A stretch of 64,000 nt of DNA from Caballeronia sp. Lep1P3 (GTDB lineage Bacteria; Pseudomonadota; Gammaproteobacteria; Burkholderiales; Burkholderiaceae). The notes under the pieces were generated by a model, which was not told the origin of the DNA, searched no databases, and saw nothing but the letters and a program-made list of their open reading frames with translations. Below, in pieces: positions 20,696 to 38,475 of the stretch. The number at the start of each line of letters is the position of its first letter. Positions within the stretch are counted from its first letter, which is position 1. Location of the stretch: positions 434,001 through 498,000 of the forward strand of contig NZ_CP084267.1 in the NCBI RefSeq assembly GCF_022879595.1, written 5' to 3'. Made by a program: the position numbers and the translations under genes.

Positions 20696-20823
20696 TTATG
20701 GTTCGACGTGCGCGGTCTCGCGCGCACGCATCGCGGTTGTCTCCCCTGATGCGTAGCAAGCGCCATGCGCTCCTAGGCGGCGAAATCGATTACTCTTTCG
20801 ACACGCGATGGAGGCACAGTGCC

Positions 20824-22533: not shown

Positions 22534-22553
22534 TCGCCGTTGCAAAGCGCGGA

Positions 22554-24017
22554 TCAGCGAAGCGGAGCGATGCCTTCGGCGACGCCTGCCGGCATGCAGA
22601 TGTGCTTGATCTCGGTGAAATCCGCGAGCGCGTCGTAGCCATGCAGACGCCCGAGCCCGCTTTGCCGATAGCCGCCGGTCTCGGCTTCAGCAAAGAGCTT
22701 GTTGTGATCGTTGATCCACACGGTCCCGTTGCGCAGCGCGCGTGCAACGCGAAAGGCGCGCGGACCGTCGTGCGTCCACACGCTCGCTGACAGCCCGAAG
22801 ACCGTATCGTTGGCCTTCGCGAGCGCTTCCTGTTCGCTATCGAAAACTTCGAGCGTGACGAACGGCCCGAAGATTTCGTCCTGACAGAAGAACGCCTTCG
22901 GATCGGCATGCTCGACGAGCGTCGGCGAGAGAAACGCGTGGCCCGAGCGCGCGCCGCGCAGAAGCACGCGGTCGGCCATATCGCATGCACGCTCGATGGT
23001 GCGGTCCACGTTGTCGCGCGTCGGCGCATCGATGAGCGCGCCGATATCCGTCGCCGGATCGATGCCCGGTCCCACTTTCAACGACGCAAGCGCCGCAGCA
23101 AGATGCTCGCGCATCTGCGCCGCGCGCGACGCATGCACCAGCACGCGCCGCGCCGCCGTGCATTGCTGACCCGAGATGATCGTCGCGGCGCGGGCAAGGC
23201 GTGGCGCGATGGCCGCGATGTCGGCATCGTCGAATACGAGGCAGCACGACTTGCCGCCGAGTTCGAGCGACAGCTTCTTCATGCTGTCGGCGGCGGCGGC
23301 CATGATTTTCTTTCCGGTCGCGGTCGAACCGGTGAAGCTCACGACATCGACATCATGCGAATCCGCAAGCCGCGCGCTCGCCGCGTGGCCTTGCTCGTTG
23401 ACGAGATTCACCGCGCCCTTCGGCAGCGCCGTTGCGTCGAAGCAGCGCAGCATGGCGGCGGTGAGAAGCGACGTCTGCGCGGCGGGCTTGACGACAGCCG
23501 TGCAGCCCGCCGCGAGCGCCGGCGCAAGCGAGCGCACGAGCAGCACCGCAGGCGCATTCCACGGCACGATGATCGCGGCGACGCCAGCGGCTTCGCGCAG
23601 CATCGTCGAGAGGGTGCCCGGTTCCGGTTCCAGCACATGCCCGGCGATATGGCGCGCGAGTCCCGCGTAATAGCGCACTTCGGAGATGGCGCCCGCAATC
23701 TCGCCGCGCGATTGCGCAATCGTCTTGCCGTTCTCGCGCGTGAGCAGCGTCGCGAGCGCTTCGCGTTGCGCCTCCAGCGCCGCGGCCCACGCGAGCAGCA
23801 CGTCCTGGCGCAGACGCGCGTCCTGCGCCCACGTCGTGCGGTCGAACACATGGCGGGCGGCGGCAATTGCCGCGTCCGCGTCGCGTGCGCCGCCGTCGGC
23901 ATACTGGCCGATGGCTTCGCCCGTCGCGGGGTCGATGCTGTCGAGCGTGGGCGTGCCGGTCCATTCGCCGGCGATCCAGTGTGGTGCGGGGTGGGGTGCG
24001 CGGTGTGGTGCATTCAT
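22554..24017 (-). CDS. NAD(P)-dependent aldehyde dehydrogenase, probably of furan metabolism
   Basis: A 487-residue aldehyde dehydrogenase. The oxyanion Asn region reads VPWNAP, the cofactor motif FTGSTATG, the general-base Glu sits in LELGGKS, and the nucleophile Cys in SGQQCTAARR. The N-terminus is rich in His and Pro (APHRAPHPAPH). Its start codon overlaps the stop of the upstream LysR gene in ATGA form, so the two are translationally coupled and this enzyme probably belongs to the regulon of that LysR protein. Oxidation of furfural or HMF to the furoic acids is the natural role in this locus, but other aldehydes are possible. Confidence 0.87.
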   Translation of the reverse strand: MNAPHRAPHPAPHWIAGEWTGTPTLDSIDPATGEAIGQYADGGARDADAAIAAARHVFDRTTWAQDARLRQDVLLAWAAALEAQREALATLLTRENGKTIAQSRGEIAGAISEVRYYAGLARHIAGHVLEPEPGTLSTMLREAAGVAAIIVPWNAPAVLLVRSLAPALAAGCTAVVKPAAQTSLLTAAMLRCFDATALPKGAVNLVNEQGHAASARLADSHDVDVVSFTGSTATGKKIMAAAADSMKKLSLELGGKSCCLVFDDADIAAIAPRLARAATIISGQQCTAARRVLVHASRAAQMREHLAAALASLKVGPGIDPATDIGALIDAPTRDNVDRTIERACDMADRVLLRGARSGHAFLSPTLVEHADPKAFFCQDEIFGPFVTLEVFDSEQEALAKANDTVFGLSASVWTHDGPRAFRVARALRNGTVWINDHNKLFAEAETGGYRQSGLGRLHGYDALADFTEIKHICMPAGVAEGIAPLR

Positions 24018-24955
24018 GCGGAGCGTTCCTTCAATGTGGACGATATTTCGGAAACCGAACTATTCGATGCCCGATGCAGTTCGTCGCGGATGATCTCGAT
24101 GAGCGCCTCGGCTGCCGCGCTCAACGGACGGCGCGGATGGCTCACGCAGACGATGTGACGCACGATGCGCGGCGCGAGTATCGGACAGGCGCGCAACGTT
24201 CCATGCCGCGCCGCGCGCTCGACGACGATGCGCGGCAGGATCGTCGCGAAACGCGTGCTCTCGACGAGCTTGAGGATGGTCGAAAGCACGTCGATCTCGA
24301 AGCGCGGCGCGAGCAGCACGTCTTCGTGCTGCGCGGCGCTGTCGAGCACGCCGCGCAGACCGTGGCGCTTGGTCGGCAGCACGAGTTCCAGTTCCGGCAA
24401 TTGCGCAAGCTCGATTGCGTGCGGCAGGTCCGGGCCATGCGTGGCGCTCGTTGCCAGGACCATTTCTTCGTCGAGCAACGCGCGCGCATCGAGCGAAAGA
24501 CGCGCGCGCGGCTTGTTGATGATCGCGGCATCGAGCTGGCCGCCCGCCACCCAGTCGATGAACGTCGCGCTGTAGCCATCGGCGACGGTGACTTCGACAT
24601 CGGGATAGCGCGCATGAAAGCGCGAGAGCGAATCGGCGAGCACGCTTTCCGTCACCGATGCAATCAGCCCGATGCCGACGTGCCCGGTCACGACTTCGTC
24701 GCGCTGAACGAGCTGCTGCCGCGCGTGCGCGAGGTCGCGCATGATCGGCAGAAAGAGCCGGTACATGAGACGTCCCGCAGCGGTCGGCGCCATGCCGTGC
24801 GCGCCGCGCTCGAAAAGCTGCTGATGCAGCTCGTCCTCCAGTTTCGCAATCTGCATGCTGAGCGCGGGCTGCACGATGTTCAGGCGCTTGGCCGCGCGCG
24901 TCACCGAGCCGTCCTCGAACAGTGCGATGAAGTACTGGATTTGCTTCAGGTCCAT
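24014..24955 (-). CDS. LysR-family regulator of the furan locus (HmfR-like, paralogue 1)
   Basis: A 313-residue LysR protein starting MDLKQIQYF: DNA-binding helix-turn-helix at 1-60 and a two-lobe ligand domain to about 295. By hand alignment 55 of its first 67 residues equal those of the second LysR protein at 37407-38318, and similarity continues through the ligand domain. The pair sits at opposite ends of the furan gene block. It diverges from the UbiD gene with 282 bases between, so it probably controls the rightward operon and, by the ATGA overlap, is co-expressed with the aldehyde dehydrogenase. The Cupriavidus hmf genes are likewise accompanied by two LysR genes. The ligand, perhaps furoate or furoyl-CoA, is inferred. 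Confidence 0.88.
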   Translation of the reverse strand: MDLKQIQYFIALFEDGSVTRAAKRLNIVQPALSMQIAKLEDELHQQLFERGAHGMAPTAAGRLMYRLFLPIMRDLAHARQQLVQRDEVVTGHVGIGLIASVTESVLADSLSRFHARYPDVEVTVADGYSATFIDWVAGGQLDAAIINKPRARLSLDARALLDEEMVLATSATHGPDLPHAIELAQLPELELVLPTKRHGLRGVLDSAAQHEDVLLAPRFEIDVLSTILKLVESTRFATILPRIVVERAARHGTLRACPILAPRIVRHIVCVSHPRRPLSAAAEALIEIIRDELHRASNSSVSEISSTLKERSA

Positions 24956-24979
24956 TCATGTCCCTCGGCATCAGCGCTG

Positions 24980-25162
24980 CTAATACCCTGTGCCTTTGTT
25001 ATCACTGCCGCATTCCTCGTACCGCGAAAGCGTTGCCGGTGCCCGGGTACGCCGCAGCGCGCTCAGGAAGGCATCTATTGATACGGAACTGTAAGACGCC
25101 TGTCATCGGGGCTAATACGGATATAAGAGCCAATGATTTGCCGCATCAGAAAACAGTATTAG
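24980..25162. promoter_or_regulatory. Divergent regulatory region with repeated CTAATAC motif
   Basis: The gap between the LysR gene and the UbiD gene holds CTAATAC at 24980-24986 and 25112-25118, and its reverse complement GTATTAG at 25156-25162. The last two face each other across 37 bases. AT content is clearly higher than in the flanking genes. These are candidate LysR sites controlling the furan operon. Confidence 0.4.
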
Positions 25163-25237
25163 AAGTTATGGCGTGATCTCGCTACGCTTCAACCATGCGC
25201 TTGCTGCGGCATTCTTCGCCGACAGGGCAGGCATCAG

Positions 25238-26752
25238 ATGGAGACGCAGATGAATACACGCGATGCCGCAACGAACGGCGTTCCCTCTTTTTCGTGGGCC
25301 ACCCAGAATAAAAGCAGCGCCGATGCCGCTTCGCTGTCGCTGCGCGACTGGCTCGCGCATCTCGCGAAAACCGGCCGCGTCGCGACCATCGACAAGCCGG
25401 TTTCGCTAAAGCACGAACTCGCCGCCATCGCGAAGCGTCTCGACGGGACGCAGGCCGCGTTCTTCACGCATCCCGGCGGCCACGCGATGCCTGTCGTCAG
25501 CGGCTTCATGGCGAAGCGCGCGTGGATCGCGGAAGCGATGGGCGTCGAGGAAGCCGGGCTGCTCGCGCGCTTTTCCGCTGCCGCATCGGCGCCGCTTCCG
25601 TCGAAGCTCGTTGCCCGCGAGAACGCGCCGTGCCAGCAAGTCGTGCATGCGCAAGACATCGACCTGCATAAGCTCTTGCCGATTCCCACGCACAGCGAGC
25701 ATGACAACGGCCCGTACATCACGGCGGGCCTCGTGATCGCGCGCAATCCGCGCACGGGCGTGCAGAACGTCTCCATCAACCGCATTCAGGTGCATGGCCG
25801 CGATCGCATGGCGATCCTGCTGCTGCCGCGCCATCTGTACGCATTTCAGCGCGCCGCCGAAGAAGCGGGCGATGCGCTCGACGTGGCCGTTGCCATCGGC
25901 GTCGATCCGCTGACGATGCTCGCATCGCAAGCCATCACGCCGATCGATCACGATGAACTCGAAATCGCCGGCGCGCTGCACGGCGCACCGCTGCCGGTCG
26001 CGCAATGCGTGACCAACGGCGTGCATGTGCCCGCGCTCGCGGAGATCGTGATCGAAGGGCGCATTCTGCCGAACGTGCGCGAGCCGGAAGGCCCGTTCGG
26101 GGAATTCCCCAAGTACTACAGCGCGAAGGAATCGCGCGAAGTCATCGAAGTCACGGCGGTCACGCATCGGCGCAACCCGATTTTTCATACGATCGTGCCC
26201 GCAGAAATGGAGCATCTGCTGCTCGGCGCGATCCCGCGCGAAGCGACGCTGCTCGCGCATCTTCAGCGCAGCCATCCGAGCGTGAAGGACGTGCATTTGT
26301 CTGTGGGCGGCGTCTGCCGCTATCACCTGTGGGTGCAGTTCGACAAGAAGCGCGAAGGCGAAGCCAAGAACGTGATTCTCTGTGCGTTCGGCGCGCATTA
26401 CGACATCAAGCAAGTGGTCGTCGTCGATCCGGACGTGAACGTGCACGATCCCGCCGAAATCGAATGGGCGATTGCGACGCGCTTCCAGGCCGACCGCGAT
26501 CTCGTCGTGGTGGCGGGCGCGCAAGGCTCGCCGCTCGATCCATCGACGACGGTCGGCCAGCCCGAGGACGCGCCCGCGCATCTGCAAGGCGTGAGCGCGA
26601 AGATGGGGCTCGACGCGACGCGGCCCGTCGTGTATCCCGCGCATGTCTTCACGCGCGTGCGGATTCCGGGGCAGGACACGGTCGACCTGAACGCGCTCGT
26701 CGCGGCGGACAGCAGCGCCCTGAACGACTATCTCGCAACCGATCATGGCTGA
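25238..26752 (+). CDS. hmfF: UbiD-family prenyl-FMN decarboxylase (candidate furandicarboxylate decarboxylase)
   Basis: A 504-residue UbiD-family enzyme. These use prenylated FMN to remove or add CO2 on unsaturated acids. The prFMN and metal region reads NVSINRIQVHGRDR, and EGPFGEFPKYY carries the conserved active-site Glu; the C-terminal IPGQDTVDLNA is present. The partner UbiX gene overlaps its end by eight bases. In this neighbourhood it matches HmfF, which decarboxylates 2,5-furandicarboxylate to 2-furoate. A second in-frame ATG at 25250 has the better ribosome site (GGAGA five bases upstream) and may be the true start. It is the first gene of the rightward furan operon. UbiD family is certain; furan substrate rests on the whole cluster. 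Confidence 0.9.
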   Translation: METQMNTRDAATNGVPSFSWATQNKSSADAASLSLRDWLAHLAKTGRVATIDKPVSLKHELAAIAKRLDGTQAAFFTHPGGHAMPVVSGFMAKRAWIAEAMGVEEAGLLARFSAAASAPLPSKLVARENAPCQQVVHAQDIDLHKLLPIPTHSEHDNGPYITAGLVIARNPRTGVQNVSINRIQVHGRDRMAILLLPRHLYAFQRAAEEAGDALDVAVAIGVDPLTMLASQAITPIDHDELEIAGALHGAPLPVAQCVTNGVHVPALAEIVIEGRILPNVREPEGPFGEFPKYYSAKESREVIEVTAVTHRRNPIFHTIVPAEMEHLLLGAIPREATLLAHLQRSHPSVKDVHLSVGGVCRYHLWVQFDKKREGEAKNVILCAFGAHYDIKQVVVVDPDVNVHDPAEIEWAIATRFQADRDLVVVAGAQGSPLDPSTTVGQPEDAPAHLQGVSAKMGLDATRPVVYPAHVFTRVRIPGQDTVDLNALVAADSSALNDYLATDHG

Positions 26753-27359
26753 ACGCGGAAAGCGCATCGTCGTCGGCATCTCGGGCGCGAGCGGCGCGGT
26801 CATCGGCGTGCGGCTGCTCGCCGCGCTGCGCCGGCTCGGCACGCACGAGACGCACCTGATCGTGTCGCAGTCGGGCGCGGTCACGGCGGCGCAGGAACTC
26901 GGCCTCACGCGCGGCGACATCGACGCGCTCGCGGACGTCGTGCATAACGTGCGCGATATCGGCGCGGCCGTGGCAAGCGGTTCGTTCCTGAGCGACGGCA
27001 TGGTGATTGCGCCGTGTTCCATGAAAACGCTCGCGGGCGTCGCGAACGGCTTCGCGGACAACCTGCTCACGCGCGCCGCCGACGTCATGCTCAAAGAGCG
27101 CCGCCGCCTCGTGCTCGTCGCGCGCGAAACGCCGCTCAATCTCGCGCACTTGCGCAACATGACGCTCGCGACCGAAATGGGCGCCATCGTCATGCCGCCC
27201 GTGCCCGCGTTCTACGCGCATCCGAAGACTATCGACGATGTCGTCGATCACACGGTCGGGCGCATCCTGGATCTGTTCGGCATCGAGCACGGCGAGATCG
27301 CGCGCCGCTGGAGCGGTCTCGCCGACGAATTCGGCAGCCGCGGCGAAGGCAAGGAGTGA
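26745..27359 (+). CDS. hmfG: UbiX-family flavin prenyltransferase
   Basis: A 204-residue enzyme that attaches a dimethylallyl group to FMN to make the prenyl-FMN cofactor of the UbiD partner. Visible motifs are GISGASGAVIG near residues 10-20, APCSMKTLA near 89-97 and RETPLNLAHLRNM near 125-137, all diagnostic for UbiX. The start overlaps the end of the decarboxylase gene by eight bases, so the pair is translationally coupled. A dedicated UbiX beside a catabolic UbiD is the arrangement of HmfF/HmfG. It could also supply the housekeeping UbiD of ubiquinone synthesis. Confidence 0.93.
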   Translation: MAERGKRIVVGISGASGAVIGVRLLAALRRLGTHETHLIVSQSGAVTAAQELGLTRGDIDALADVVHNVRDIGAAVASGSFLSDGMVIAPCSMKTLAGVANGFADNLLTRAADVMLKERRRLVLVARETPLNLAHLRNMTLATEMGAIVMPPVPAFYAHPKTIDDVVDHTVGRILDLFGIEHGEIARRWSGLADEFGSRGEGKE

Positions 27360-27363
27360 AGCC

Positions 27364-30300
27364 ATGAACCAGCGCGATACCGGATTCGCCGACATCAACG
27401 CGCGCGTCGCCGACAGCGATGCAGTCCAGCCCGCGCGTCACGTCGGCCGGCCGATGCAGCGTCTCGAAGACCCCGCGATTCTCACCGGGCGCGGGCGCTA
27501 CGGCGACGATCTCGCGGTCAAGCCCGGCACGTTGCAGGCCGCGATCCTGCGCTCGCCGCACGCGCACGCGGATATCGTGGCCATCGACACGCAAGCGGCA
27601 TCGAAGCTGCATGGCGTGCGCGCGATTCTCACGCGCGACGATCTCCGGCCGTGGTCGCGGCCCTTCGTCGTCGGCGTGAAGTCGCCGATGGAGCAATGGG
27701 CGCTCGCGATGGACCGCGTGCGTTATGTCGGCGAGCCGGTTGCCGTCGTCATGGCGGAATCGCGCGCGATCGCGGAAGACGCGCTCGATCTCATTCGCGT
27801 CGAATACGCGCTGCGCGATCCGGTTACATCCATCGAGCAGTGCTTGCAGGACGACGCGCCCGTTCTGCACGAGCGCGTGGGAACGAACGTCATCAGCGAC
27901 AGGCATTTCCGCTATGGCGACCCCGAAGCGGCGTTCGCGAGCGCGCCGCATCGCGTGAAGCTCACGACGCACTATCCGCGCAACACGTGCGCGCCGATCG
28001 AATGCGGCGTCGTTATCGCGGAGTATCTGTCAGGCGACGAAGGCTACGACGTCACCTCGAATTTCATGGGGCCGTTCTCGCTGCACGCCGTCATGGCGAT
28101 GGCGCTCAACGTGTCCGCCAACCGTCTGCGTCACAAGGCGCCGCGCGATTCCGGCGGCAGCTTCGGCGTGAAGCAGGCCGTGTTTCCGTATGTCGTGCTG
28201 ATGTGCCTCGCTTCGCGCAAGGCGGGCGCGCCGGTGAAGTGGGTCGAGGACCGGCTCGAGCACCTGAGCGCGGCGACCTCGGCGACTGCGCGCCTTTCGA
28301 CCATCGAAGCGGCGGTGCAAGACGACGGGCGCATCGTCGCGCTTTCCTACGATCAACTCGAAGACGTGGGCGGCTACGTGCGCGCACCCGAGCCCGCGAC
28401 GTTCTACCGGATGCACGGCTGTCTGACGGGCGCGTATGCGATCGACAATCTCATCGTGCGCAATCGCGTGGTGCTCACCAACAAGACGCCGAGCGGCCTC
28501 GTGCGCGGCTTCGGCGGACCGCAGGTCTATTTCGCGCTGGAGCGGCTGGTTCAGCGCATCGCCGTCGAATTGAAGCTCGACGTGCTCGATGTCTATCGCC
28601 GCAACTTCGTGCCCGCCGATGCGTTTCCGTATCGCGCGGCAGCCGGCGCGCTGCTCGATTCCGGCAACTATCAGGAAGCGCTGCGGCGCTCGGTCAGCGA
28701 AGGCGGCTACGGCGAACTCGCCGCGCGGCGCGATGCGGCCCGCAAGGAAGGGCGTCTCTATGGCATCGGCTTCGCGGCGATCGTGGAGCCGTCGGTGTCG
28801 AACATGGGCTACATCACGACCGTGATGCCGCCCGAGGCGCGCAAGAAGGCCGGGCCGAAGAACGGCGCGATCGCGAGCGCGACGGTGAGCGTCGATCTGC
28901 TGGGCGGCGTCGTCGTCACGATCGCATCGACGCCGGCCGGACAGGGCCACATGACGGTGTGCGCGCAAGTCGTCGCGGACGTGCTCGGGCTGGACCCGAA
29001 GGACATCGTCGTGAACGTCGAGTTCGACACGCACAAGGACGCGTGGTCCGTCGCGGCGGGCAACTATTCGAGCCGTTTCGCGGGCGCGGTGGCCGGCACG
29101 GTGCATCTCGCGGCGACGCGCGTGCGCGACAAGCTCGCCCGCATTCTCGCGAAGCAGTTCGGCTGCGCGCCCGGCGACGTGCATTTCGAAGGCGCGCGCA
29201 TTTATCCGAAGGACGCGCGGGACCGCGCGCTGCCGTTCGCGCGCGCCGCGAGCAACGCGCCGCACTGGGCGCCGGCGTTGCTGCCCGAGGGCGACGAGCC
29301 GGGCCTGCGCGAAACCGTGTTCTGGTCGCCGCCGCACATGGACGCGCCCGACGAAGCGGACCGCATCAACACGTCGGCGGCGTATGGCTTCGCGTTCGAC
29401 ATGTGCGGCGTCGAAGTGGACCGCGCGACGGGGCGCGTGCGTATCGACCGGTACGTGACGGTGCACGACGCGGGCACGATCCTCAATCCCGCGCTCGCGG
29501 ACGGCCAGATTCGCGGCGCGTTCGCGCAAGGGCTCGGCGCGGCGCTGATGGAAGAGTTCCGCTATGGCGCGGACGGCAGCTTCCAGTCCGGCACGCTCGC
29601 CGACTATCTGATGCCGACGACCTGCGAAGTCCCCGATCCGGTGATCGTGCATCTCGAAACGCCGTCGCCGTTCACGCCGCTCGGCGCGAAAGGACTCGGC
29701 GAAGGCAACAACATGAGCACGCCGCCGTGCATCGCGAATGCGGTGGCCGATGCGCTCGGCGTCGCGGACATTCGCCTTCCGCTCACGCCGCAAAAGGTGA
29801 TGGCGATGATCGGCATCGACGATCCCGAACCGTCGCGCCCCGAATATCGCGAAGCGCCCGCGACGAAGCCCGCGGCGCCCGGCGGCGGCCGCGCGCTCAC
29901 GGCGCAAGGCACGGTCGATCTGCCCGCGACGCCCGAAGCGGTGTTCGCCGTGCTGCTCGACCCGAAGGCGCTCGCCAATGTCATTCCCGGCTGTCACGCG
30001 CTGGAAGAAACCGCCCCGAACCAGTATCGCGCGGATGTGACGGTGGGCGTGGGCATGATCAAGGCGCGTTTCGAGGCGCGCATCGGCTTGTCGGAAATCG
30101 ACGCGCCGCGCCGCCTGCGTCTCGCGGGCGCGGGCATGTCGCCGCTCGGCAGCGCGCGCGGCAACGGTCTCGTCGAACTGACGCCGCACGCGGGCGGCAC
30201 GCGGCTCACGTATGACTACGAGGCGCAAGTGTCCGGCAAGGTCGCGGCGGTCGGCGGCCGCATGCTCGAAGGCGCGGCGAAGGTCGTGCTCCGGCAGTTG

Positions 30301-30396
30301 TTCGAATCCCTCGGGCGGCAGGCGGCGGGCAAGCCGGTGCAGACGCGCGGCTCGTGGATCGCAAGACTTCTTGCACGTTTCAGGAGGCACGCATGA
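27364..30396 (+). CDS. hmfA: Molybdenum dehydrogenase large subunit fused to a CoxG-like SRPBCC domain (candidate 2-furoyl-CoA dehydrogenase)
   Basis: A 1010-residue protein. Residues about 30-790 are the xanthine dehydrogenase/CO dehydrogenase large subunit holding the molybdopterin cofactor, with GGSFG at 264-268, a RGFGGPQ motif and the active-site Glu780 in AKGLGEG. Residues about 843-985 form a separate SRPBCC domain of the CoxG type (VDLPATPEAVFAVLLDP start), the kind that helps mature or localise molybdenum hydroxylases. With the FAD and 2Fe-2S subunits encoded next it would hydroxylate 2-furoyl-CoA at C5. The ATG at 27364 is used, four bases after the UbiX stop, and the upstream open frame lies inside that gene. 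The end overlaps the next start in ATGA form. The SRPBCC fusion is a notable feature. Confidence 0.9.
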   Translation: MNQRDTGFADINARVADSDAVQPARHVGRPMQRLEDPAILTGRGRYGDDLAVKPGTLQAAILRSPHAHADIVAIDTQAASKLHGVRAILTRDDLRPWSRPFVVGVKSPMEQWALAMDRVRYVGEPVAVVMAESRAIAEDALDLIRVEYALRDPVTSIEQCLQDDAPVLHERVGTNVISDRHFRYGDPEAAFASAPHRVKLTTHYPRNTCAPIECGVVIAEYLSGDEGYDVTSNFMGPFSLHAVMAMALNVSANRLRHKAPRDSGGSFGVKQAVFPYVVLMCLASRKAGAPVKWVEDRLEHLSAATSATARLSTIEAAVQDDGRIVALSYDQLEDVGGYVRAPEPATFYRMHGCLTGAYAIDNLIVRNRVVLTNKTPSGLVRGFGGPQVYFALERLVQRIAVELKLDVLDVYRRNFVPADAFPYRAAAGALLDSGNYQEALRRSVSEGGYGELAARRDAARKEGRLYGIGFAAIVEPSVSNMGYITTVMPPEARKKAGPKNGAIASATVSVDLLGGVVVTIASTPAGQGHMTVCAQVVADVLGLDPKDIVVNVEFDTHKDAWSVAAGNYSSRFAGAVAGTVHLAATRVRDKLARILAKQFGCAPGDVHFEGARIYPKDARDRALPFARAASNAPHWAPALLPEGDEPGLRETVFWSPPHMDAPDEADRINTSAAYGFAFDMCGVEVDRATGRVRIDRYVTVHDAGTILNPALADGQIRGAFAQGLGAALMEEFRYGADGSFQSGTLADYLMPTTCEVPDPVIVHLETPSPFTPLGAKGLGEGNNMSTPPCIANAVADALGVADIRLPLTPQKVMAMIGIDDPEPSRPEYREAPATKPAAPGGGRALTAQGTVDLPATPEAVFAVLLDPKALANVIPGCHALEETAPNQYRADVTVGVGMIKARFEARIGLSEIDAPRRLRLAGAGMSPLGSARGNGLVELTPHAGGTRLTYDYEAQVSGKVAAVGGRMLEGAAKVVLRQLFESLGRQAAGKPVQTRGSWIARLLARFRRHA

Positions 30397-31214
30397 AGCC
30401 CGCATCGTTCGACTATCTGCGCGCCAAGACGACGCAGGACGCGCTCGATGCGCTCGCGCAATACGGCGAGGACGCGCGCATTCTGGCGGGCGGGCAATCG
30501 CTGATGGCGGTGCTCAACATGCGGCTCGCCCAGCCGCGCGTGCTCGTCGATGTCTCGCGCACCGCCGAACTCGATGCCGTGCGCGTCGACGACCGAGCGG
30601 GGCATCTCGTCGTGAGCGCGGCGGCGACGCAAGGCAGCGTCGAATGGCGCGGCACGCTGCAAGACGAAGTGCCGATGCTCGCGATGGCGTTCCCGAATAT
30701 CTCGCATTTTCAGATCCGCAATCGCGGGACGGTGTGCGGTTCCATCGCGCATGCCGATCCGAGCGCCGAACTGCCGCTCGTGCTGAGCGCGCTCGGCGGC
30801 GACGTGCTGCTGCGCTCGAAGAAGAAGCGCCGCACGCTCGCGGCGAAGGACTTCTTTCAGGGAATGCTGATGACCGCGCGCGAGCCGGACGAACTCGTGG
30901 AAGCCGTGCGCTTTCCGCTGAAAAGACCGGGCGAGCGCTACGCATTCACCGAATTTTCCGCGCGCCACGGCGATTTCGCGGTGGTCGCGTGCGCGGCGGC
31001 CGTCACGGACGATTCGATTCGCATCGCGGTGGGCGGCGTCGCGGACAGGCCGGTTGCGGAAACGTGGCCGCGTCTCTCGGGCGACGATCTGCGCGGCGCG
31101 CTGAACGATTTGAGTTGGAAACTGAACGCGCAGGACGACGCGCACATCAGCGCGAAGTATCGCCGGCACCTGGTCCGGCAACTCGGATGGCGCGTGATCG
31201 AGGAGGCGAAGTGA
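30393..31214 (+). CDS. hmfB: Molybdenum dehydrogenase FAD-binding subunit
   Basis: A 273-residue CoxM-type medium subunit. The FAD loops are recognisable as LAGGQSLMAVLNMRL near residues 31-45 and NRGTVCGSIAHADPSAE near 110-126, with the C-terminal CO_deh_flav_C domain (FSARHGDFAVV onward). It passes electrons from the 2Fe-2S clusters to an acceptor. The ATG at 30393 overlaps the previous stop and has AGGAGG eight bases upstream. The end overlaps the next GTG start. In the furan pathway this is the middle subunit of furoyl-CoA dehydrogenase; the same fold also serves CO, nicotinate and quinoline oxidation. Confidence 0.91.
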   Translation: MKPASFDYLRAKTTQDALDALAQYGEDARILAGGQSLMAVLNMRLAQPRVLVDVSRTAELDAVRVDDRAGHLVVSAAATQGSVEWRGTLQDEVPMLAMAFPNISHFQIRNRGTVCGSIAHADPSAELPLVLSALGGDVLLRSKKKRRTLAAKDFFQGMLMTAREPDELVEAVRFPLKRPGERYAFTEFSARHGDFAVVACAAAVTDDSIRIAVGGVADRPVAETWPRLSGDDLRGALNDLSWKLNAQDDAHISAKYRRHLVRQLGWRVIEEAK

Positions 31215-31762
31215 GCAACACGGCGGACAACATCATGCGGCACGGCGAGCAGCAGCGCATCACGCTGACGCTCAACGGCCGCGAAAGAAGCGGTCATTGC
31301 GAGCCGCGCGAACTGCTGTCGGATTTCATCCGGCACGAACTCGGCGCGACCGGCACGCACGTCGGCTGCGAGCATGGCGTGTGTGGCGCATGCACGGTGC
31401 ACGTGGATGGCATCGCGGCGCGCTCGTGCCTGATGCTGGCCGTGCAGGCCGACGGACGGCGCATCGACACGGTCGAAGGCCTCGCGCCCGGGCAAACGCT
31501 CGGCGATCTGCAGCAGGCGTTCCAGCGGCATCACGCGCTGCAGTGCGGCTTCTGCACGGCGGGCATTCTGATGTCGTGCGCGGACTATCTGAAGCGCGTA
31601 CCGAATCCCACCGAGGAGCAAGTGCGCGAGATGCTGTCCGGGCACATCTGCCGCTGCACCGGTTACACGCCGATCGTCGCGGCCGTGCTGGACGCGGCCG
31701 CGCGCCGTCAGTCGGGCGAGGCGGGCGAGGGGAACGAGGCGAAGGAGGCCGAACATGCTTGA
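31211..31762 (+). CDS. hmfC: Molybdenum dehydrogenase [2Fe-2S] subunit
   Basis: A 183-residue small subunit with two clusters. The plant-ferredoxin type site uses Cys53, Cys58, Cys61 and Cys73, and the helical-domain site uses Cys112, Cys115, Cys147 and Cys149 (QCGFC and CRCTGY). I chose the GTG at 31211, which overlaps the preceding stop as GTGA and has GAGGAGG just upstream; an ATG at 31235 would trim eight residues. The open frame upstream of the GTG is inside the FAD-subunit gene. The C-terminal 20 residues are charged and Glu-rich, beyond the usual domain end. It joins the large and FAD subunits as the electron relay. Confidence 0.93.
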   Translation: MSNTADNIMRHGEQQRITLTLNGRERSGHCEPRELLSDFIRHELGATGTHVGCEHGVCGACTVHVDGIAARSCLMLAVQADGRRIDTVEGLAPGQTLGDLQQAFQRHHALQCGFCTAGILMSCADYLKRVPNPTEEQVREMLSGHICRCTGYTPIVAAVLDAAARRQSGEAGEGNEAKEAEHA

Positions 31763-33317
31763 TCTCGGCCGCACCTTCCTGCAAAGCGTCGAGCGCAGCC
31801 CGGACGCGCTCGCGCTCGTCGATGGCGACGTGCAACTGACATATGCCGCGTGGCATCGCGTGATTCTGAATGTCGCCGATGGCCTGCGCGAACTCGGCCT
31901 GCAACGCGGCGACCGGCTGCTCGTCGTGCTGCAGAACCGCTGGGAAATGGCGACGCTGCACTGGGCCGGCCAGTTCGCGGGCATCGTGATCGTGCCGCTC
32001 AACTGGCGCGCGAAGCCCGACGAACTCGAATACTGCGTGACGGACGCGGGCGTGAAGGCGATCGTCTACGAACCCGTTTGCGCCGATGCGGTGGCGCAAA
32101 GCGCATCGGCGCAGAACGTGCCGCGCATCGGTCTCGACGATGTCGCGGGCCGTACGATGACCTTCGACGCACTCATGGCGGAACGCGAGCGCGAACGCAC
32201 CGGCGAGACGGTGCACGCCACCGCCGACGACATCTCGCTCATCCTCTATACATCCGGCACGACCGGCAAGGCGAAGGGCGTGCCGCGCCGTCATCGGCAC
32301 GAACGCGCGGGCGCGCTCGCGCACGTCGCGCAAAACCTGTATCGGCGCGGCGAAAGAACGCTCGGTGTGATGCCGCTCTATCACACGATGGGCGTGCGCT
32401 CGCTGCTTTCGATGGCGCTCGTCGATGGCGTGTTCGTCTGCGTGCGGCGCTGGAACGCGAAGCTCGCGCTCGACTCCATCGCGGGCCACGCGCTGACGTG
32501 CCTCTATCTCGTGCCGACGCTTTATCACGATCTGCTCGCCGACAGCGCATTCGCGAGCACGGATACGTCGTCGGTCAGAAAGCTCGGCTTCGCGGGCGCG
32601 CCGATGAACGACGGCCTGCTCAAGCGCCTCTCGGCCGCCTTCGAGCCGGACCTTTTCGTGAATCACTACGGCTCGTCCGAGGTCTACACGTTCAGCATCG
32701 ATCAGGACGCCACGAAAAAGCCCGGCAGCGCGGGGCGCGCGGGCATCAATACGCGGCTGCGCGTGGCGAAGCTCGACGCCGTTTCGCCCGACGACATCGC
32801 CGCGACGGGCGAGGAAGGCCAGATCATCGCGGACCTGCTCGGCGACGAAGCGTTCGAAGGCTACTGGAACCGCCCGGACGCGAACGCGAAGTCGCTGCGC
32901 GACGGCTGGTACTTCACCGGCGACACCGGCTACTTCGACCGTGACGGCGATCTCTACGTGACGGGCCGCGTCGACGACATGATCATCAGCGGCGGCGAGA
33001 ACATCTCGCCGGTGGACATCGAATCGGTGTTGTCGCTGCATCCGGCTGTCGATGAAGTCGCGGTCGCGGGCGTGAAGGACGAGCGCTGGGGCCAGCGCGT
33101 CGTCGCGTTCATCAAGCGCCGCGAGTACGTGGACGCCGAAACGCTCGACGGCTGGTGCCGCCAGTCCGATCTCGTCAATTTCAAGCGGCCGCGCGACTAC
33201 GTGTTCGTCGACGACATTCCGAAGTCGCCGGTCGGCAAGATACTGCGCCGCAAGCTGCAGGCGGGCGAATACGCGAGCGACGCCAACGCTCGACCCACAC
33301 AGACTACGAAGGAGTAA
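31755..33317 (+). CDS. hmfD: AMP-forming acyl-CoA synthetase (candidate 2-furoyl-CoA synthetase)
   Basis: A 520-residue member of the ANL adenylating family. The P-loop reads LYTSGTTGKAKG near residues 163-174, the adenine site NHYGSSEVY, then YFTGDTGY and GRVDDMIISGGENISP in the hinge, and the C-terminal catalytic Lys in PVGKILRR. It would activate a carboxylic acid to its CoA thioester, using ATP. It overlaps the 2Fe-2S subunit gene by eight bases and is followed six bases later by the enoyl-CoA hydratase-family gene. In this context 2-furoate is the most likely acid, making the substrate for the molybdenum dehydrogenase. Benzoate-like aromatic acids would be the alternative. Confidence 0.9.
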   Translation: MLDLGRTFLQSVERSPDALALVDGDVQLTYAAWHRVILNVADGLRELGLQRGDRLLVVLQNRWEMATLHWAGQFAGIVIVPLNWRAKPDELEYCVTDAGVKAIVYEPVCADAVAQSASAQNVPRIGLDDVAGRTMTFDALMAERERERTGETVHATADDISLILYTSGTTGKAKGVPRRHRHERAGALAHVAQNLYRRGERTLGVMPLYHTMGVRSLLSMALVDGVFVCVRRWNAKLALDSIAGHALTCLYLVPTLYHDLLADSAFASTDTSSVRKLGFAGAPMNDGLLKRLSAAFEPDLFVNHYGSSEVYTFSIDQDATKKPGSAGRAGINTRLRVAKLDAVSPDDIAATGEEGQIIADLLGDEAFEGYWNRPDANAKSLRDGWYFTGDTGYFDRDGDLYVTGRVDDMIISGGENISPVDIESVLSLHPAVDEVAVAGVKDERWGQRVVAFIKRREYVDAETLDGWCRQSDLVNFKRPRDYVFVDDIPKSPVGKILRRKLQAGEYASDANARPTQTTKE

Positions 33318-33323
33318 TTCCAC

Positions 33324-34130
33324 ATGAGCGATTTGAACCATCGCGGCCAGACGCTGCTGCAAGACCTCGACGGCTTTTCGGTCGAAATCGACGCCGCCCG
33401 GGAGCGCGCCGACATCATCCTGCATCGTCCGCCGCTCAACGTCATTTCGATGCACGCGCGCGACCAGCTTCGCACGGTGTTCGAAGCACTGGACGACGAC
33501 GAGCGCGTGCGCGTGATCGTCGTGCGCGCGAAGGGCGAGCACTTTTCGAGCGGCGGCGACATCAAGGGCTTTCTCGAAGCGTCGCCGGAGCATGTGTCGA
33601 AGCTCGCATGGAACATCGCCGCGCCCGCGCGCTGCTCGAAGCCGGTTATCGCGGCCAATCGCGGCTTCTGCTTCGGCGTGGGTTTCGAGTTGTCGCTCGC
33701 ATGCGATTTCCGCATCGTCACCGAAACGACGTTCTACGCGCTGCCGGAGCAGAAGCTCGGCCAGATTCCCGGCTCGGGCGGCTCGGCGCGCCTTCAGGCG
33801 ATGGTCGGCATCGGCCGCACGAAGGACATCGTGATGCGCTCGCGCCGCATTCCCGGCAAGCAGGCTTACGAATGGGGCATCGCGGTGGACTGCGTGCCGG
33901 ACACCGAACTGGAAGCCGCCACCGATGCGCTCGTCGACGAACTGCGCGCGTTCTCGCCGCTCGCGCAGCGCACCGCGAAGAAGCTCCTGAACGATTCGGA
34001 GGACGCGCCGCTTTCCATCGCGATCGAACTGGAAGGCCATTGCTATAGCCGCCTGCGCTCGTCCGACGATTTCCGCGAGGGCGTCGAAGCGTTTCACGGC
34101 AAGAGGAAGCCGGCGTTCCGCGGAAGCTGA
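33324..34130 (+). CDS. hmfE: Enoyl-CoA hydratase/isomerase-family protein (candidate HmfE)
   Basis: A 268-residue crotonase-fold enzyme. The first oxyanion-hole segment is EHFSSGGDIKGF near residues 72-83, and the second is NRGFCFGVGFELSLACDF near 111-128, followed by PEQKLGQIPGSGGSARL. It begins after AAGGAG, spaced eight to nine bases from the ATG. In the furan pathway the crotonase-family HmfE is assigned to the late steps, after 5-hydroxy-2-furoyl-CoA opens to 2-oxoglutaryl-CoA, releasing 2-oxoglutarate. Family is sure; the exact reaction is taken from the known pathway and not from residues. Confidence 0.87.
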   Translation: MSDLNHRGQTLLQDLDGFSVEIDAARERADIILHRPPLNVISMHARDQLRTVFEALDDDERVRVIVVRAKGEHFSSGGDIKGFLEASPEHVSKLAWNIAAPARCSKPVIAANRGFCFGVGFELSLACDFRIVTETTFYALPEQKLGQIPGSGGSARLQAMVGIGRTKDIVMRSRRIPGKQAYEWGIAVDCVPDTELEAATDALVDELRAFSPLAQRTAKKLLNDSEDAPLSIAIELEGHCYSRLRSSDDFREGVEAFHGKRKPAFRGS

Positions 34131-34165
34131 TCGGCGGCGCCGCATACAAGAACAGGAGACACGCG

Positions 34166-35914
34166 ATGGAACGCTTCGATTACGTGATCGTGGGCGGCGG
34201 TTCGGCGGGATGCGTGCTCGCGCACCGGCTGTCGGCGGTGCCGTCGCTGCGCGTCGCGCTGATCGAAGCCGGCGCCGACACGCCGCCCGGCGCGGTGCCC
34301 GCGGCCATTCTCGACAGCTATCCGATGCCGGTGTTCTGCGGCGACACCTACATCTGGCCCGAACTGAAGGCGAAAGCCACGAAGGACGCCGCGCCGCGCG
34401 TGTACGAGCAGGGCCGCGTGATGGGCGGCGGCTCCAGCATCAACGTGCAGTCGGCCAATCGCGGCCTGCCGCGCGACTACGACGAATGGGCCGCGACGGG
34501 CGCGCACGGCTGGGCGTGGCGCGACGTGCTGCCGTACTTCCGCAAGCTGGAGCGCGACGTGAACTTTCCGGGCGGCGAGTTGCACGGCAGCGACGGCCCT
34601 GTGCCGATCCGCCGCATCATGCCGAAGGACTGGCCCGCGTTCTGCCATGCGTTCGCGAAGGGCTTGCGCGCGAACGGCGTCGCCGAGTTGCAGGACCAGA
34701 ACGGCGAGTTCGGCGACGGCTTCTTTCCCGGCGCGTTCTCGAATATCGACGACAAGCGCGTGTCCACGGCCATCGCCTATCTGGACGAAGCCACGCGCAA
34801 GCGTCCGACTCTCGCGGTGTTTTCGAATCTGCGCGTCGAGCGCATCGTGATGGAAGGCGCGGCGGCGCGTGGCGTGATCGCGGTGGCGGCGAGCGGCGAG
34901 CGCGTGCGCTTCGATGCCGGCGAGGTCGTGCTGAGCGCGGGCGCGTTGCAATCGCCGGCGCTGCTCTTGCGCGCGGGCATCGGCGATGCGCGCGAACTCG
35001 CGGCGCTCGGCATCGCGTGCGCGGTCGATTTACCGGGCGTCGGGCGCAATCTCCAGGATCATCCGTCGCTCACGTTCTGCCATTTTCTCGAACCGCGTTT
35101 CCGGATGCCGCTCGCGCGGCGCCGCGCCAGCATGATGGCCGCGCGCCTCAGTTCCGGCGTCGCGGGCTGCGACGAGTCCGATTTGTACTTGTCGAGCGCG
35201 ACGCGCGCGGCGTGGCACGAACTCGGCAACCGGCTCGGCCTGTTCTTTCTGTGGTGCAACCGGCCGTATTCGCGGGGCCGCGTGCAGCTCGCATCGTCCG
35301 ATGCGGCCGCCGCGCCGCGCGTCGATCTCAACCTGCTCGACGACGAGCGCGACGTGCAGCGCCTTGCCGCCGGCGTGCGGATGCTTGCGCGCGTGGTTCA
35401 GGCGTCGGGTCTCGGACACGATGCTGACGATGGGCGCGACTTCTTTCCCGCCGCGTTCTCGCCGCGCGTCAAGGCGATGAGCCAGGTCGGCGAAGGCAAC
35501 GCGCTGCTCACGAAGGCGCTCGGCGCGCTGCTCGATACGCCCGCGCCGATGCGCCGCTTCCTGATCGACCGCTTCTTCACGCGCGGGCTGAATATGGCCG
35601 CGCTCCTCGCCGACGAGCGCGCACTCGCCGATTTCATCCGCGCGAACGTGTTCGGCGTGTGGCACGCGAGCGGAACATGCCGAATGGGCGGCGCGCACGA
35701 CCGCGACGCCGTCACGGATACCGAAGGCCGCGTGCATGGCGCGCGGGGCTTGCGCGTGGTCGATGCATCGCTGATGCCGAGACTGCCATCGGCCAATACG
35801 AACATACCGACCATCATGATCGCCGAGAAGATCGCCGACGCGATGATCGCGCAACGACGCGCGAGCGAAGCTACCAACGTGTTGGGAACGCCCCCGCTCG
35901 CCGCCGCGCACTGA
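34166..35914 (+). CDS. hmfH: GMC-family FAD oxidoreductase (candidate HMF/furfural oxidoreductase)
   Basis: A 582-residue glucose-methanol-choline oxidoreductase. FAD binding is by VGGGSAGCVLAHRLS near residues 9-23 and the PROSITE-type GRVMGGGSSIN near 86-96. The C-terminal active-site His lies in WHASGTCRMG, followed by DASLMPRLPSANTNIPTIMIAEK. AGGAGA stands nine bases before the ATG. Homologous HmfH oxidises HMF-derived alcohols and aldehydes stepwise towards furandicarboxylate, and such FAD enzymes may pass electrons to O2 or another acceptor. It is 35 bases after the hydratase-family gene in the furan operon. Choline and other alcohol oxidases share this fold, so the assignment leans on the cluster. 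Confidence 0.9.
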   Translation: MERFDYVIVGGGSAGCVLAHRLSAVPSLRVALIEAGADTPPGAVPAAILDSYPMPVFCGDTYIWPELKAKATKDAAPRVYEQGRVMGGGSSINVQSANRGLPRDYDEWAATGAHGWAWRDVLPYFRKLERDVNFPGGELHGSDGPVPIRRIMPKDWPAFCHAFAKGLRANGVAELQDQNGEFGDGFFPGAFSNIDDKRVSTAIAYLDEATRKRPTLAVFSNLRVERIVMEGAAARGVIAVAASGERVRFDAGEVVLSAGALQSPALLLRAGIGDARELAALGIACAVDLPGVGRNLQDHPSLTFCHFLEPRFRMPLARRRASMMAARLSSGVAGCDESDLYLSSATRAAWHELGNRLGLFFLWCNRPYSRGRVQLASSDAAAAPRVDLNLLDDERDVQRLAAGVRMLARVVQASGLGHDADDGRDFFPAAFSPRVKAMSQVGEGNALLTKALGALLDTPAPMRRFLIDRFFTRGLNMAALLADERALADFIRANVFGVWHASGTCRMGGAHDRDAVTDTEGRVHGARGLRVVDASLMPRLPSANTNIPTIMIAEKIADAMIAQRRASEATNVLGTPPLAAAH

Positions 35915-36008
35915 TTTTTTCAACCTCAACAAGAGCACGCATATAACAAAACGTGCCGCGACACGGGGGCGATCGAAAGACGGCCCGGTGACAAACTAGG
36001 AGATGCAA

Positions 36009-37391
36009 ATGTCCGTAGCTGCACAAGACGGGGCCGCCGCGCTTCCGGTGAACCAGCGGCAGATCATGGGAGCGGTGCTCGCCTCCTGCATGGGCTGGGC
36101 GCTCGATCTGTTCGATCTGTTCGTGTTGTTGTACGTGGCGCCGGTGGTCGGGCGTCTCTTCTTCCCGTCCGAACACGCGATGCTCTCGCTCGCCGCGGTC
36201 TATGCGTCCTTCGCGGTGACGCTGCTCATGCGTCCGCTCGGCTCCGCGCTCTTCGGCTCCTACGCGGACCGCCACGGCCGCAAGGGCGCGATGATCATCG
36301 CGGTGGTCGGCGTCGGTGTCTCGACGGCGGCCTTCGGCGTGTTGCCGACCGTCGCGCAGGCGGGGCTCGTCGCGCCGATTCTCTTTCTGCTGCTGCGGCT
36401 CGTGCAGGGCGTGTTCGTCGGCGGCGTGGTGGCATCGACGCATACGATCGGCACGGAATCGGTCGCGCCGAAGTATCGCGGCGCGGTGTCGGGGCTGATC
36501 GGCGGCGGCGGCGCGGGGCTGGGCGCGCTGCTCGCATCGCTCACGTATCTCGCGATGTCGTCGATCTTTCCCGGCGATCTCTTCGACACGTGGGGCTGGC
36601 GCTGCATGTTCTTCACCGGCATCCTGAGTTCGGTGCTCGGCCTCTTCGTGTTCAACAGTCTCGAGGAATCGCCGCTCTGGAAAAAGCTCGCCGCGGAGAA
36701 GGCCGCGAAAGCCAAGGCCGCCGCCGCGCAGGTTCAGACCGCGCCGGCCGAAGTGGTGCGCTCGCCGGTGCGCACGCTCTTTTCGCGCGACTATCGCGGC
36801 GTGCTGTTCGTGAACCTGCTGCTGACCATCGGGGGCGGCAGCGGCTACTACCTCACGTCCGGCTATCTGCCGACGTTCCTCAAGGTCGTGAGCCATGCGC
36901 CCAACGGCGCCGCCGCCGCGATCCTGATGATCTCGAGCGTGGCGGTGCTCGCCGCGTCGGTTGCGGCGGGGCACTTGAGCACGTTCATCGGGCGCAAGAG
37001 CGCGTTCGTGTGGATCGGCCTGATCCGGCTCGTCGCGCTGCCGGGGCTTTTCCTGCTGCTGCCGACCGCGCACAGCATCACGATGATCGGCGTCTACGCG
37101 GTGCTGCTCTCCGCGCTCGGAAGCGCGGGCTATGCGCCGATCCTCATCTTCCTGAACGAACGCTTCCCGACCGCGATCCGCGCAACCGGCACCGGCCTTT
37201 CATGGAACATCGGCTTTGCCATCGGCGGGATGATGCCGACCTTCGTCTCGCTCATCGCGAAGGATGCGAGCCAGTTGCCCTCGACGCTCGCGATCTTCGT
37301 CGGCGCGATCAGCGTGATCTTTCTGGTCGGCGCGTTTATCGTGCCCGAGACGCTCGGCAAGCTGGAAAACGGCGCGCGGCGCGCCGGCTGA
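36009..37391 (+). CDS. MFS transporter of the furan operon
   Basis: A 460-residue twelve-helix major facilitator of the aromatic-acid or metabolite:H+ symporter type. The N-terminal SCMGWALDLFDLFVL carries the helix-1 Asp typical of that group, and GSYADRHGRKGAMI is the TM2-3 signature. ATG codons at 36003 and 36009 are both possible. AGGAG (35998-36002) touches the first and is six bases from the second, so I prefer 36009. It follows the GMC gene by 94 bases, enough for its own promoter. It corresponds to the HmfT transporters found with other hmf genes and presumably imports furoate or HMF acids. It ends 15 bases from the convergent LysR gene. Confidence 0.9.
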   Translation: MSVAAQDGAAALPVNQRQIMGAVLASCMGWALDLFDLFVLLYVAPVVGRLFFPSEHAMLSLAAVYASFAVTLLMRPLGSALFGSYADRHGRKGAMIIAVVGVGVSTAAFGVLPTVAQAGLVAPILFLLLRLVQGVFVGGVVASTHTIGTESVAPKYRGAVSGLIGGGGAGLGALLASLTYLAMSSIFPGDLFDTWGWRCMFFTGILSSVLGLFVFNSLEESPLWKKLAAEKAAKAKAAAAQVQTAPAEVVRSPVRTLFSRDYRGVLFVNLLLTIGGGSGYYLTSGYLPTFLKVVSHAPNGAAAAILMISSVAVLAASVAAGHLSTFIGRKSAFVWIGLIRLVALPGLFLLLPTAHSITMIGVYAVLLSALGSAGYAPILIFLNERFPTAIRATGTGLSWNIGFAIGGMMPTFVSLIAKDASQLPSTLAIFVGAISVIFLVGAFIVPETLGKLENGARRAG

Positions 37392-37409
37392 ACATCAGGC
37401 TGAACATCA
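37386..37409. repeat. Tandem 12-base direct repeat across two stop codons
   Basis: GGCTGAACATCA occurs twice in direct succession (37386-37397 and 37398-37409). One copy holds the MFS stop codon and the other the stop codon of the opposing LysR gene. Confidence 0.7.
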
Positions 37410-38318
37410 GGCTTCCGGCGCGCGCTTGGTCACGCGCCGGATTTCCTCGGTGATGATGCCGATGAGCGCCTGCGCGGCGGGACCGATCGGCCGCTTCGGA
37501 TGCGTGACCTGGATGATGTGACGCACGATCGGCGGCGAGACGATGGTGCGGGCGCGCAGACGGCCATCGTCCACTTCCGCCTGCACGACGACGCGCGGGA
37601 GAATCGTCGCCGTGGCGCTCTGCTCGACGAACTGCACGATGGTGCTGAGCAGATCGATCTCGAACTTCGGCTTGATGACGATGTCGGCGGCCATGAGCGC
37701 GGCGTCGAGCGCGCCGCGCAAACCGTTGCGGCGCGTCGGCAAGACGAGTTCGAGGTCCGTCCGCCCGACGAGATCGATTTCGTCCGGTAGCGCCGGGCCG
37801 TGCGTCGCGCTGGTCACGAGCACCATTTCCTCGACGAGCAGCGGCTCCACGTCGAGCGTGAGCCGTCCGCGCGGCTTGTTGATGATCGCGGCGTCGAGCC
37901 GGCCGGATTCGACGGCGTCGATGAGCTGCGCGCTGAAACCGTCGGCCACCGACACTTCCACTTGCGGAAAGAGCGCATCGAAGCGCGCGAGCGATTCGGG
38001 CAGCACGCTTTGCGCCTCCGACGACACCATGCCGAGCGACACGCGCCCGGTCACGATCACATCGCGCCGGGACAGATGCTCGCGCGCGTTGTCGATGTCG
38101 CGCATGATCGGCGTGTAGAGCCGGTACATGAGGCGCGCCGCTTCCGTCGGCGCCATGCCGTGCGGCCCGCGCTCGAAAAGCGTCTGACGCACTTCGCTCT
38201 CCAGCTTCGCGACCTGCATGCTGAGCGCGGGCTGCGCGATGTTGAGGCGCTTCGCGGCGCGCGTGACCGTGCCTTCCTCGAAGAGCGCGATGAAATACTG
38301 GATCTGCTTGAGTTCCAT
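37407..38318 (-). CDS. LysR-family regulator of the furan locus (HmfR-like, paralogue 2)
   Basis: A 303-residue LysR protein starting MELKQIQYF, with the helix-turn-helix in the first 60 residues and a two-lobe ligand domain. It is a close paralogue of the LysR protein at 24014-24955 along most of its length, including the shared ADGF/YSA and AAIINKPRGRL segments of the ligand domain. The open frame extends 51 codons upstream, but that part is arginine-rich non-domain sequence and the ATG at 38318 aligns with the paralogue. It faces the end of the furan operon. Two nearly identical DNA-binding domains suggest shared operators, perhaps with different ligands. Confidence 0.88.
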   Translation of the reverse strand: MELKQIQYFIALFEEGTVTRAAKRLNIAQPALSMQVAKLESEVRQTLFERGPHGMAPTEAARLMYRLYTPIMRDIDNAREHLSRRDVIVTGRVSLGMVSSEAQSVLPESLARFDALFPQVEVSVADGFSAQLIDAVESGRLDAAIINKPRGRLTLDVEPLLVEEMVLVTSATHGPALPDEIDLVGRTDLELVLPTRRNGLRGALDAALMAADIVIKPKFEIDLLSTIVQFVEQSATATILPRVVVQAEVDDGRLRARTIVSPPIVRHIIQVTHPKRPIGPAAQALIGIITEEIRRVTKRAPEA

Positions 38319-38475
38319 GTGACAGGCGTGAACCGGACGGGACCGACGAGGATAGTACCGCGCGCCGCCCCTCAAGAGATCGGCGCCGTGGTCGTTAACT
38401 CCCGTATGGAGTCGCCGATTCCAGCCGGGCGCCGGCGAGGCCGCGAGCCCGCGGCGACCAAGCGAGAGCATTCAT

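Follow-up and report, generated by a model that had tools for sequence, protein, structure and literature searches.

What does the block of twelve neighbouring genes at positions 22554-38318 of the stretch studied here do, and does it add anything to what is known of the pathway that it appears to encode? The stretch, called the window below, is a 64 kb piece (C3:434001-498000) of the 6.18 Mb genome of the soil bacterium Caballeronia sp. Lep1P3. We read the block as a further copy of the hmf locus already described, predicted from its sequence to serve the catabolism of 5-hydroxymethylfurfural (HMF), furfural and 2-furoate, and we put the probability of this reading at about 93%. The pathway itself was published for Cupriavidus basilensis and is transferred here by homology. 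All of the genes named in an initial annotation of the window are present; the twelve are intact frames, and each carries the Pfam domains expected of it. The names in the following list give predicted identities.

22554..24017, minus strand: aldehyde dehydrogenase (ALDH), adh/psfA-like by position; PF00171, E 8e-142; proposed to oxidise furfural and 5-formyl-2-furoic acid (FFCA)
24014..24955, minus strand: LysR1 regulator; PF00126 and PF03466
24956..25237, no strand: putative divergent control region between LysR1 and hmfF; 282 bases with three copies of CTAATAC
25238..26752, plus strand: HmfF, UbiD-type 2,5-furandicarboxylate decarboxylase; best solved relative 6h6v (HmfF)
26745..27359, plus strand: HmfG, UbiX-type flavin prenyltransferase; NCBIfam UbiX family models above their cut-offs
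27364..30396, plus strand: HmfA, molybdenum large subunit of furoyl-CoA dehydrogenase; PF01315, PF02738, PF20256, PF06240
29890..30393, plus strand: CoxG domain, linker and tail, inside HmfA; PF06240, E 5e-22
30393..31214, plus strand: HmfB, flavin adenine dinucleotide (FAD) subunit; PF00941, PF03450 (scan began at GTG 30354)
31211..31762, plus strand: HmfC, 2Fe-2S subunit (start GTG 31211 or ATG 31235); PF01799, relatives in syntenic loci
31755..33317, plus strand: HmfD, furoyl-CoA synthetase of the acyl-CoA ligase family; PF00501, PF13193, synteny
33324..34130, plus strand: HmfE, crotonase-fold 2-oxoglutaroyl-CoA hydrolase; PF00378, 79-97% identity across the loci having hmfE
34166..35914, plus strand: HmfH, GMC-family oxidase of HMF and 5-hydroxymethyl-2-furoic acid (HMFCA); best solved relatives are HMF oxidase (HMFO) chains
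36003..37391, plus strand: major facilitator superfamily (MFS) transporter, metabolite/H+ symporter family, proposed furan-acid uptake; PF00083, PF07690
37407..38318, minus strand: LysR2 regulator, convergent with the MFS gene; 62% identity to LysR1

Evidence for a furan pathway

The furan assignment is carried first by the UbiD protein, which, compared with solved structures, scores 468 bits (E 3e-139) with 6h6v and 209 bits with the next enzyme, AnInD; PMC8988006 names the former as HmfF and the latter as an indole-3-carboxylate decarboxylase. Residues E274, H296 and R304 of the 6h6v chain are conserved as E304, H326 and R334. We take E274 and R304 to be residues that matter. The histidine called H297 in the numbering of PMC7976604, which is described there as key to furan specificity, is by our reading H296 of the 6h6v chain. 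Because of the gap between 468 and 209 bits and the retention of this histidine, we assign the UbiD protein to HmfF.

The second carrier is the GMC protein, for which the HMFO chains 4udp, 6f97 and 4udr reach 435-440 bits and the next solved relative, 8b7s, 225. Five residues of MetspHMFO (Asn102, Trp369, Trp466, His467 and Asn511) are conserved in 41 HMFO-like sequences according to PMC7414962, and all five are retained in HmfH, as N93, W363, W499, H500 and N544. Two substitutions count against the assignment, M103 of HMFO being replaced by Val and V367 by Phe, and the same paper describes both as variable, often substituted positions. At 582 amino acids, HmfH is nearer in length to the HmfH of C. 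basilensis, whose gene has 1740 bp (PMC12064950), than to the 531-amino-acid HMFO chain.

The third carrier is synteny. Our locus comparison covers the best 80 of 221 confirmed HmfF relatives in a collection of named genomes, and its order counts are lower bounds, since some loci end at contig ends and only matches on the hmfF strand with at least 45% identity were used. The order F-G-A-B-C-D-E-H-MFS is the commonest arrangement, found in 48 of the 80 loci (P. phenoliruptrix HU18, L023, shows it), and it is therefore not a product of chance. The same order without a GMC relative accounts for 8 further loci, including that of P. xenovorans LB400; five Massilia loci have H-MFS-A-B-C-D-F-G-E, three Cupriavidus loci have F-G-H-A-B-C, and 16 show other or cut arrangements. 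Loci L026, L031, L036, L039, L042, L045, L047 and L053 are the eight with no GMC oxidase relative in the stretch examined. The two sets of structural scores, together with the synteny, uphold the furan call of the initial annotation.

How, then, would the pathway run? The published route leads from HMF through 2,5-furandicarboxylic acid (FDCA), 2-furoate and furoyl-CoA to 2-oxoglutarate (PMC6604932, PMC6678421, PMC12064950). In Caballeronia, FDCA would arise from HMF derivatives by side-chain oxidation through HmfH and the ALDH, and the ALDH would also convert furfural to furoate; HmfF, with prenylated flavin mononucleotide supplied by HmfG, would turn FDCA into 2-furoate, which HmfD would activate to furoyl-CoA; HmfABC would hydroxylate furoyl-CoA, and once the lactone had opened HmfE would release 2-oxoglutarate. 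The MFS protein would import furan acids and both LysR proteins would regulate the locus. PMC12064950 has HmfH acting mainly from HMFCA to FFCA, with an aldehyde dehydrogenase, PsfA, making FDCA from FFCA; the ALDH of our locus is, by position only, the natural candidate for that last step, and it reaches the cut-off of 0 of the 25 NCBIfam models listed for it.

The initial annotation called the locus complete, which is too strong: HmfA to HmfH are all there, but three functions have no gene identified. Against the pathway as drawn, no family match for a lactone-opening enzyme appeared among the twelve locus genes in general scans made without a hyd query sequence. The locus contains no XdhC-type gene for molybdenum-cofactor maturation (psfD type), and the genome's two PF02625 (XdhC-family) matches lie outside it, at C1:3032122 and C1:2202675. 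Nor was a gene for a dedicated enzyme from HMF to HMFCA identified in the locus.

Which molybdenum enzyme is HmfABC?

The genes for the large, FAD and 2Fe-2S subunits stand together and adjoin hmfD and hmfE. Some points here tell against a furoyl-CoA dehydrogenase. The closest solved relatives of HmfA are carbon monoxide (CO) dehydrogenase at 375 bits and quinoline oxidoreductase at 355 bits, in a table of solved relatives that included no isoquinoline enzyme and no furoyl-CoA dehydrogenase, and the predicted identities of HmfA to HmfE are based on family and domains, on synteny and on linkage to HmfF and HmfH. The initial annotation had named as grounds against the furan call a grouping of the UbiD protein and the large subunit with nicotinate, isoquinoline or hydroxybenzoyl-CoA enzymes, combined with a failure of the strain to use furans. 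The UbiD protein groups with HmfF; for the large subunit the answer is partial, in that CO dehydrogenase and quinoline oxidoreductase outscore both 4-hydroxybenzoyl-CoA reductase, at 228 bits, and nicotinate dehydrogenase, an enzyme split over two chains, at 116 bits.

One could read these scores to mean that the block breaks down some other heteroaromatic acid, of the pyrrole, thiophene or pyridine type, through its UbiD protein and molybdenum hydroxylase, and that the resemblance to hmf is secondary. Many heteroaromatics are indeed served by molybdenum hydroxylases and UbiD enzymes, and the two nearest solved relatives of the large subunit, CO dehydrogenase and quinoline oxidoreductase, count in its favour. 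The UbiD and GMC proteins, however, score far higher with furan enzymes than with their other solved relatives, the hydroxybenzoyl-CoA and nicotinate enzymes are weaker matches to the large subunit, and a pyridine or pyrrole route would have no evident use for an HMF-type GMC oxidase, so that we hold this reading to be very improbable.

Even less credible, to a degree that we can scarcely entertain it, is a CO dehydrogenase encoded in the middle of a furan pathway made up of the remaining genes only. It would account for the top solved match (CoxL, 8uem), for the top NCBIfam match (an aerobic CO dehydrogenase model) and for the presence of a CoxG domain. That model reaches 454 bits where its cut-off is 950, however, and a second CoxL model 403 where the cut-off is 991, so both are missed; hmfA lies after hmfG and ahead of the CoA ligase gene; and residues 380-387 of HmfA have GFGG where the aligned segment of CoxL has CSFR, which we take to be the carrier of the copper ligand. 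On these family-model and solved-structure scores, the pyridine-type, hydroxybenzoyl-CoA and CO dehydrogenase readings of the molybdenum enzyme were dropped, and we keep furoyl-CoA dehydrogenase as the predicted function of HmfABC.

A CoxG domain fused to the large subunit

The large subunit has a feature absent from the initial annotation: HmfA ends in a CoxG domain (residues 849-986), which a variable linker connects to a short, basic tail (residues 997-1010). PF06240 scores 78.5 bits there against a Pfam gathering cut-off of 22.2, and a profile of the domain matches the CoxG chain 8uds (E 1.3e-9), presumably the CoxG of M. smegmatis. A second, stronger CoxG-family match, adjoining an XdhC-family match, lies away from the hmf locus at C1:3031583-3032328.

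Is the fusion general? The molybdenum large subunit and CoxG share a single frame in 72 of the 72 compared loci that show both; in the remaining 8 of the 80, HmfA is cut short or lies outside the stretch examined. Among 398 genomes of the family, HmfA occurs in 84 with 87 matches, 86 of them in frames of at least 1011 amino acids, and in the lone exception (G955) the frame is broken ahead of the CoxG part, which follows directly after. A sample of the phylum (299 genomes) gave 80 listed PF06240 matches, five of which stand in frames of at least 1000 amino acids; each of these five is an HmfA, with 62-100% identity. Other large subunits listed in ten genomes have at most 38% identity to HmfA, with the alignment ending at residue 846, where CoxG starts. 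Another 14 of the 80 listed matches fall in frames of 340-999 amino acids, and of the ten of these that were examined, eight carry CoxG behind the 2Fe-2S subunit of other molybdenum hydroxylases (L106, L107, L108, L109, L110, L112, L113 and L115), one of them, L108, with the FAD subunit as well. A CoxG fusion as such is thus not peculiar to HmfA, and only the fusion to the large subunit is, within the phylum sample. CoxG has been joined separately to different subunits of molybdenum hydroxylases, which points to a physical partnership between CoxG and these enzymes. CO dehydrogenase and the other CoxG-bearing molybdenum hydroxylases are, like HmfABC, three-part enzymes with a CoxG protein or domain; in CO dehydrogenase, as described in the cited papers, CoxG is a separate protein, whereas in HmfA it is fused to the large subunit.

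We are less sure of what the domain does, though it may bring HmfABC to the membrane and enable quinone reduction, by analogy with systems in which CoxG recruits such enzymes. Loss of coxG in O. carboxidovorans lengthened the generation time on CO from 21 to 149 h, and membrane recruitment was proposed (PMC4240915); in Sulfolobus, CoxG-like proteins recruit glycerol-3-phosphate dehydrogenase (G3PDH) to the membrane (PMC11962113); and the survey PMC13240472 cites CoxG as a menaquinone-binding protein. More fully, the CoxG domain and the short, basic, mostly tryptophan-bearing tail of HmfA would dock the enzyme at the membrane, take up quinone and pass electrons directly to the respiratory chain rather than through NAD+, an end that other molybdenum hydroxylases would reach through their fusion of CoxG to the 2Fe-2S subunit. 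We give this proposal even odds. The tails agree in composition: across 42 sequences (the window's own plus 41 that were left of 71 extracted HmfA sequences once near-duplicates had been removed), the net charge is at least +2 in 42, and a tryptophan stands within the last 18 residues in 40.

Several observations pull the other way. When the tail is compared with shuffled versions of itself, its hydrophobic moment is higher at p<=0.05 in just 3 of the 42 sequences, and a model of full-length HmfA is too poor to support a fold search, with a mean predicted local distance difference test (pLDDT) score of 60 (67-86 in the CoxG blocks except two at 53-54, and 38-42 in the tail). According to PMC8941161, a CO oxidiser without coxG exists, which weakens the inference of docking and quinone transfer. 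The domain might instead have a role in subunit assembly or stability, which we think rather unlikely but well worth weighing: the CO dehydrogenase of the O. carboxidovorans coxG mutant has a complete metal site and only 51% specific activity (PMC4240915), and Sulfolobus G3PDHs without CoxG still reduce quinone (PMC11962113), a fact that also bears against a quinone function. These same two papers nevertheless support membrane recruitment by CoxG, and the survey's menaquinone binding also speaks against a mere assembly role. The domain is, moreover, conserved about as strongly as the catalytic part, with a mean column entropy over 25 sequences of 0.60 bits for CoxG and 0.54 for the molybdenum domains. 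Among 20 listed papers of the 563 retrieved in a literature search for a link between CoxG and furoyl-CoA dehydrogenase, one, PMC8941161, has both terms, and its available passages leave them unconnected.

Arrangement, control and known relatives

The initial annotation described the first seven genes as closely packed, and from F to E the plus-strand junctions do run from -8 to +6 bases: F/G -8, G/A +4, A/B -4, B/C -4, C/D -8 and D/E +6. The A/B value assumes ATG 30393 as the start of hmfB, and the B/C value holds for GTG 31211 and becomes +20 with ATG 31235; for HmfA the most likely start is 27364. Gaps are larger downstream, at +35 bases for E/H and +88 for H/MFS. A 516-amino-acid frame at 30212-31762 was rejected as a single protein, the FAD subunit occupying 30393-31214 in another frame and the 2Fe-2S subunit ending at 31762.

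The ALDH and LysR1 genes form a leftward pair with a 4-base overlap, and 282 bases separate the pair from hmfF, which runs the other way. The same divergence of LysR1 and hmfF is seen in 64 of the 80 compared loci, and an ALDH relative lies behind LysR1 in 32 of the 80; LysR2 is mostly beyond their 10 kb flanks. Alignment of 64 LysR1-hmfF intergenic regions (the window's and those of 63 loci) shows a conserved block at about 25077-25195. The motif CTAATAC occurs at 24980 (plus), 25112 (plus) and 25156 (minus) and nowhere else in the window, three copies against 0.63 expected; at least three arose in 2 of 100 shuffles, for a motif picked after the region had been inspected. The repeats suggest a putative LysR operator. 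A sigma-70 scan of positions 22000-39000 gave 0 promoter-like sites, with 1.9 expected by chance, and is therefore uninformative.

How does the locus compare with described hmf systems? The gene families and the proposed pathway to 2-oxoglutarate are the same as in C. basilensis HMF14, whose two clusters, hmfABCDE and hmfFGH'H (PMC6961589), bear out the split stated in the initial annotation, and whose HmfA to HmfE have the GenBank accessions ADE20399-20403 (PMC6678421). By description, that strain differs in having two clusters and a second hmfH' where Caballeronia has one block and one hmfH, and mutant phenotypes are reported for both clusters (PMC6961589). P. phymatum STM815 has on pBPHY01 the same order, LysR1-F-G-A-B-C-D-E-H-MFS-LysR2, and, unlike our locus, no ALDH relative within a 24 kb stretch. 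The cluster of Pseudomonas umsongensis GO16 is similar in having hmfABCDE, hmfF with its accessory gene psfC, a LysR gene and genes for an aldehyde dehydrogenase and for transporters; it differs in using PsfG in place of HmfH and in having hyd, psfD and araC, none of which was identified in the Caballeronia locus (PMC12064950). P. putida KT2440 has served as host for the expression of a 12 kb piece of B. phytofirmans DNA that contains the hmf cluster (PMC6678421), and in 2014 HmfH, D, ABC, FG and E were reported from B. phenoliruptrix, as they were from every mutualist Burkholderia strain in the same comparison (PMC4101177). Given that report and the shared order in 48 of 80 relatives, the locus is of a known kind and its novelty is low. 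The contiguous block remarked on earlier is real without being new, as those relatives and P. phymatum STM815 attest, and the ALDH at its left end is present at 22554-24017, although an aldehyde dehydrogenase near hmf genes had already been described (PMC6604932).

Of 58 genomes of the genus, including the one that the window comes from, 31 have HmfF (E <= 1e-150), so the locus is accessory. On a plasmid of Cupriavidus oxalaticus T2 (L091, 1560-24605), hmfF-G, a gene for a tripartite tricarboxylate transporter binding protein and hmfA-B-C-D-E are flanked by integrase genes and TniB/TniQ-type transposition genes; the plasmid is typed as conjugative, and with these flanks the hmf pathway that it carries may be mobile. 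Next to the Caballeronia locus itself, 39650-41317 (minus strand) encodes an MmgE/PrpD-family protein (PF03972, PF19305) whose start resembles an export signal. On its other side are a gene for a flavohaemoglobin-like protein with a globin and an NAD-binding domain (19469-20683, minus strand) and, beside it, a dihydroxyacetone kinase-type gene (20674-22533).

The locus adds a strain with predicted furan catabolism, of use for clearing inhibitors from biomass hydrolysates and for FDCA chemistry. At an otherwise known locus, the fusion of CoxG to HmfA is the single point worth testing and the sole testable addition. If the proposed role is true, the fusion would reveal the destination of the electrons released when furoyl-CoA is oxidised, and it would offer a covalently tethered model of how CoxG serves molybdenum hydroxylases.

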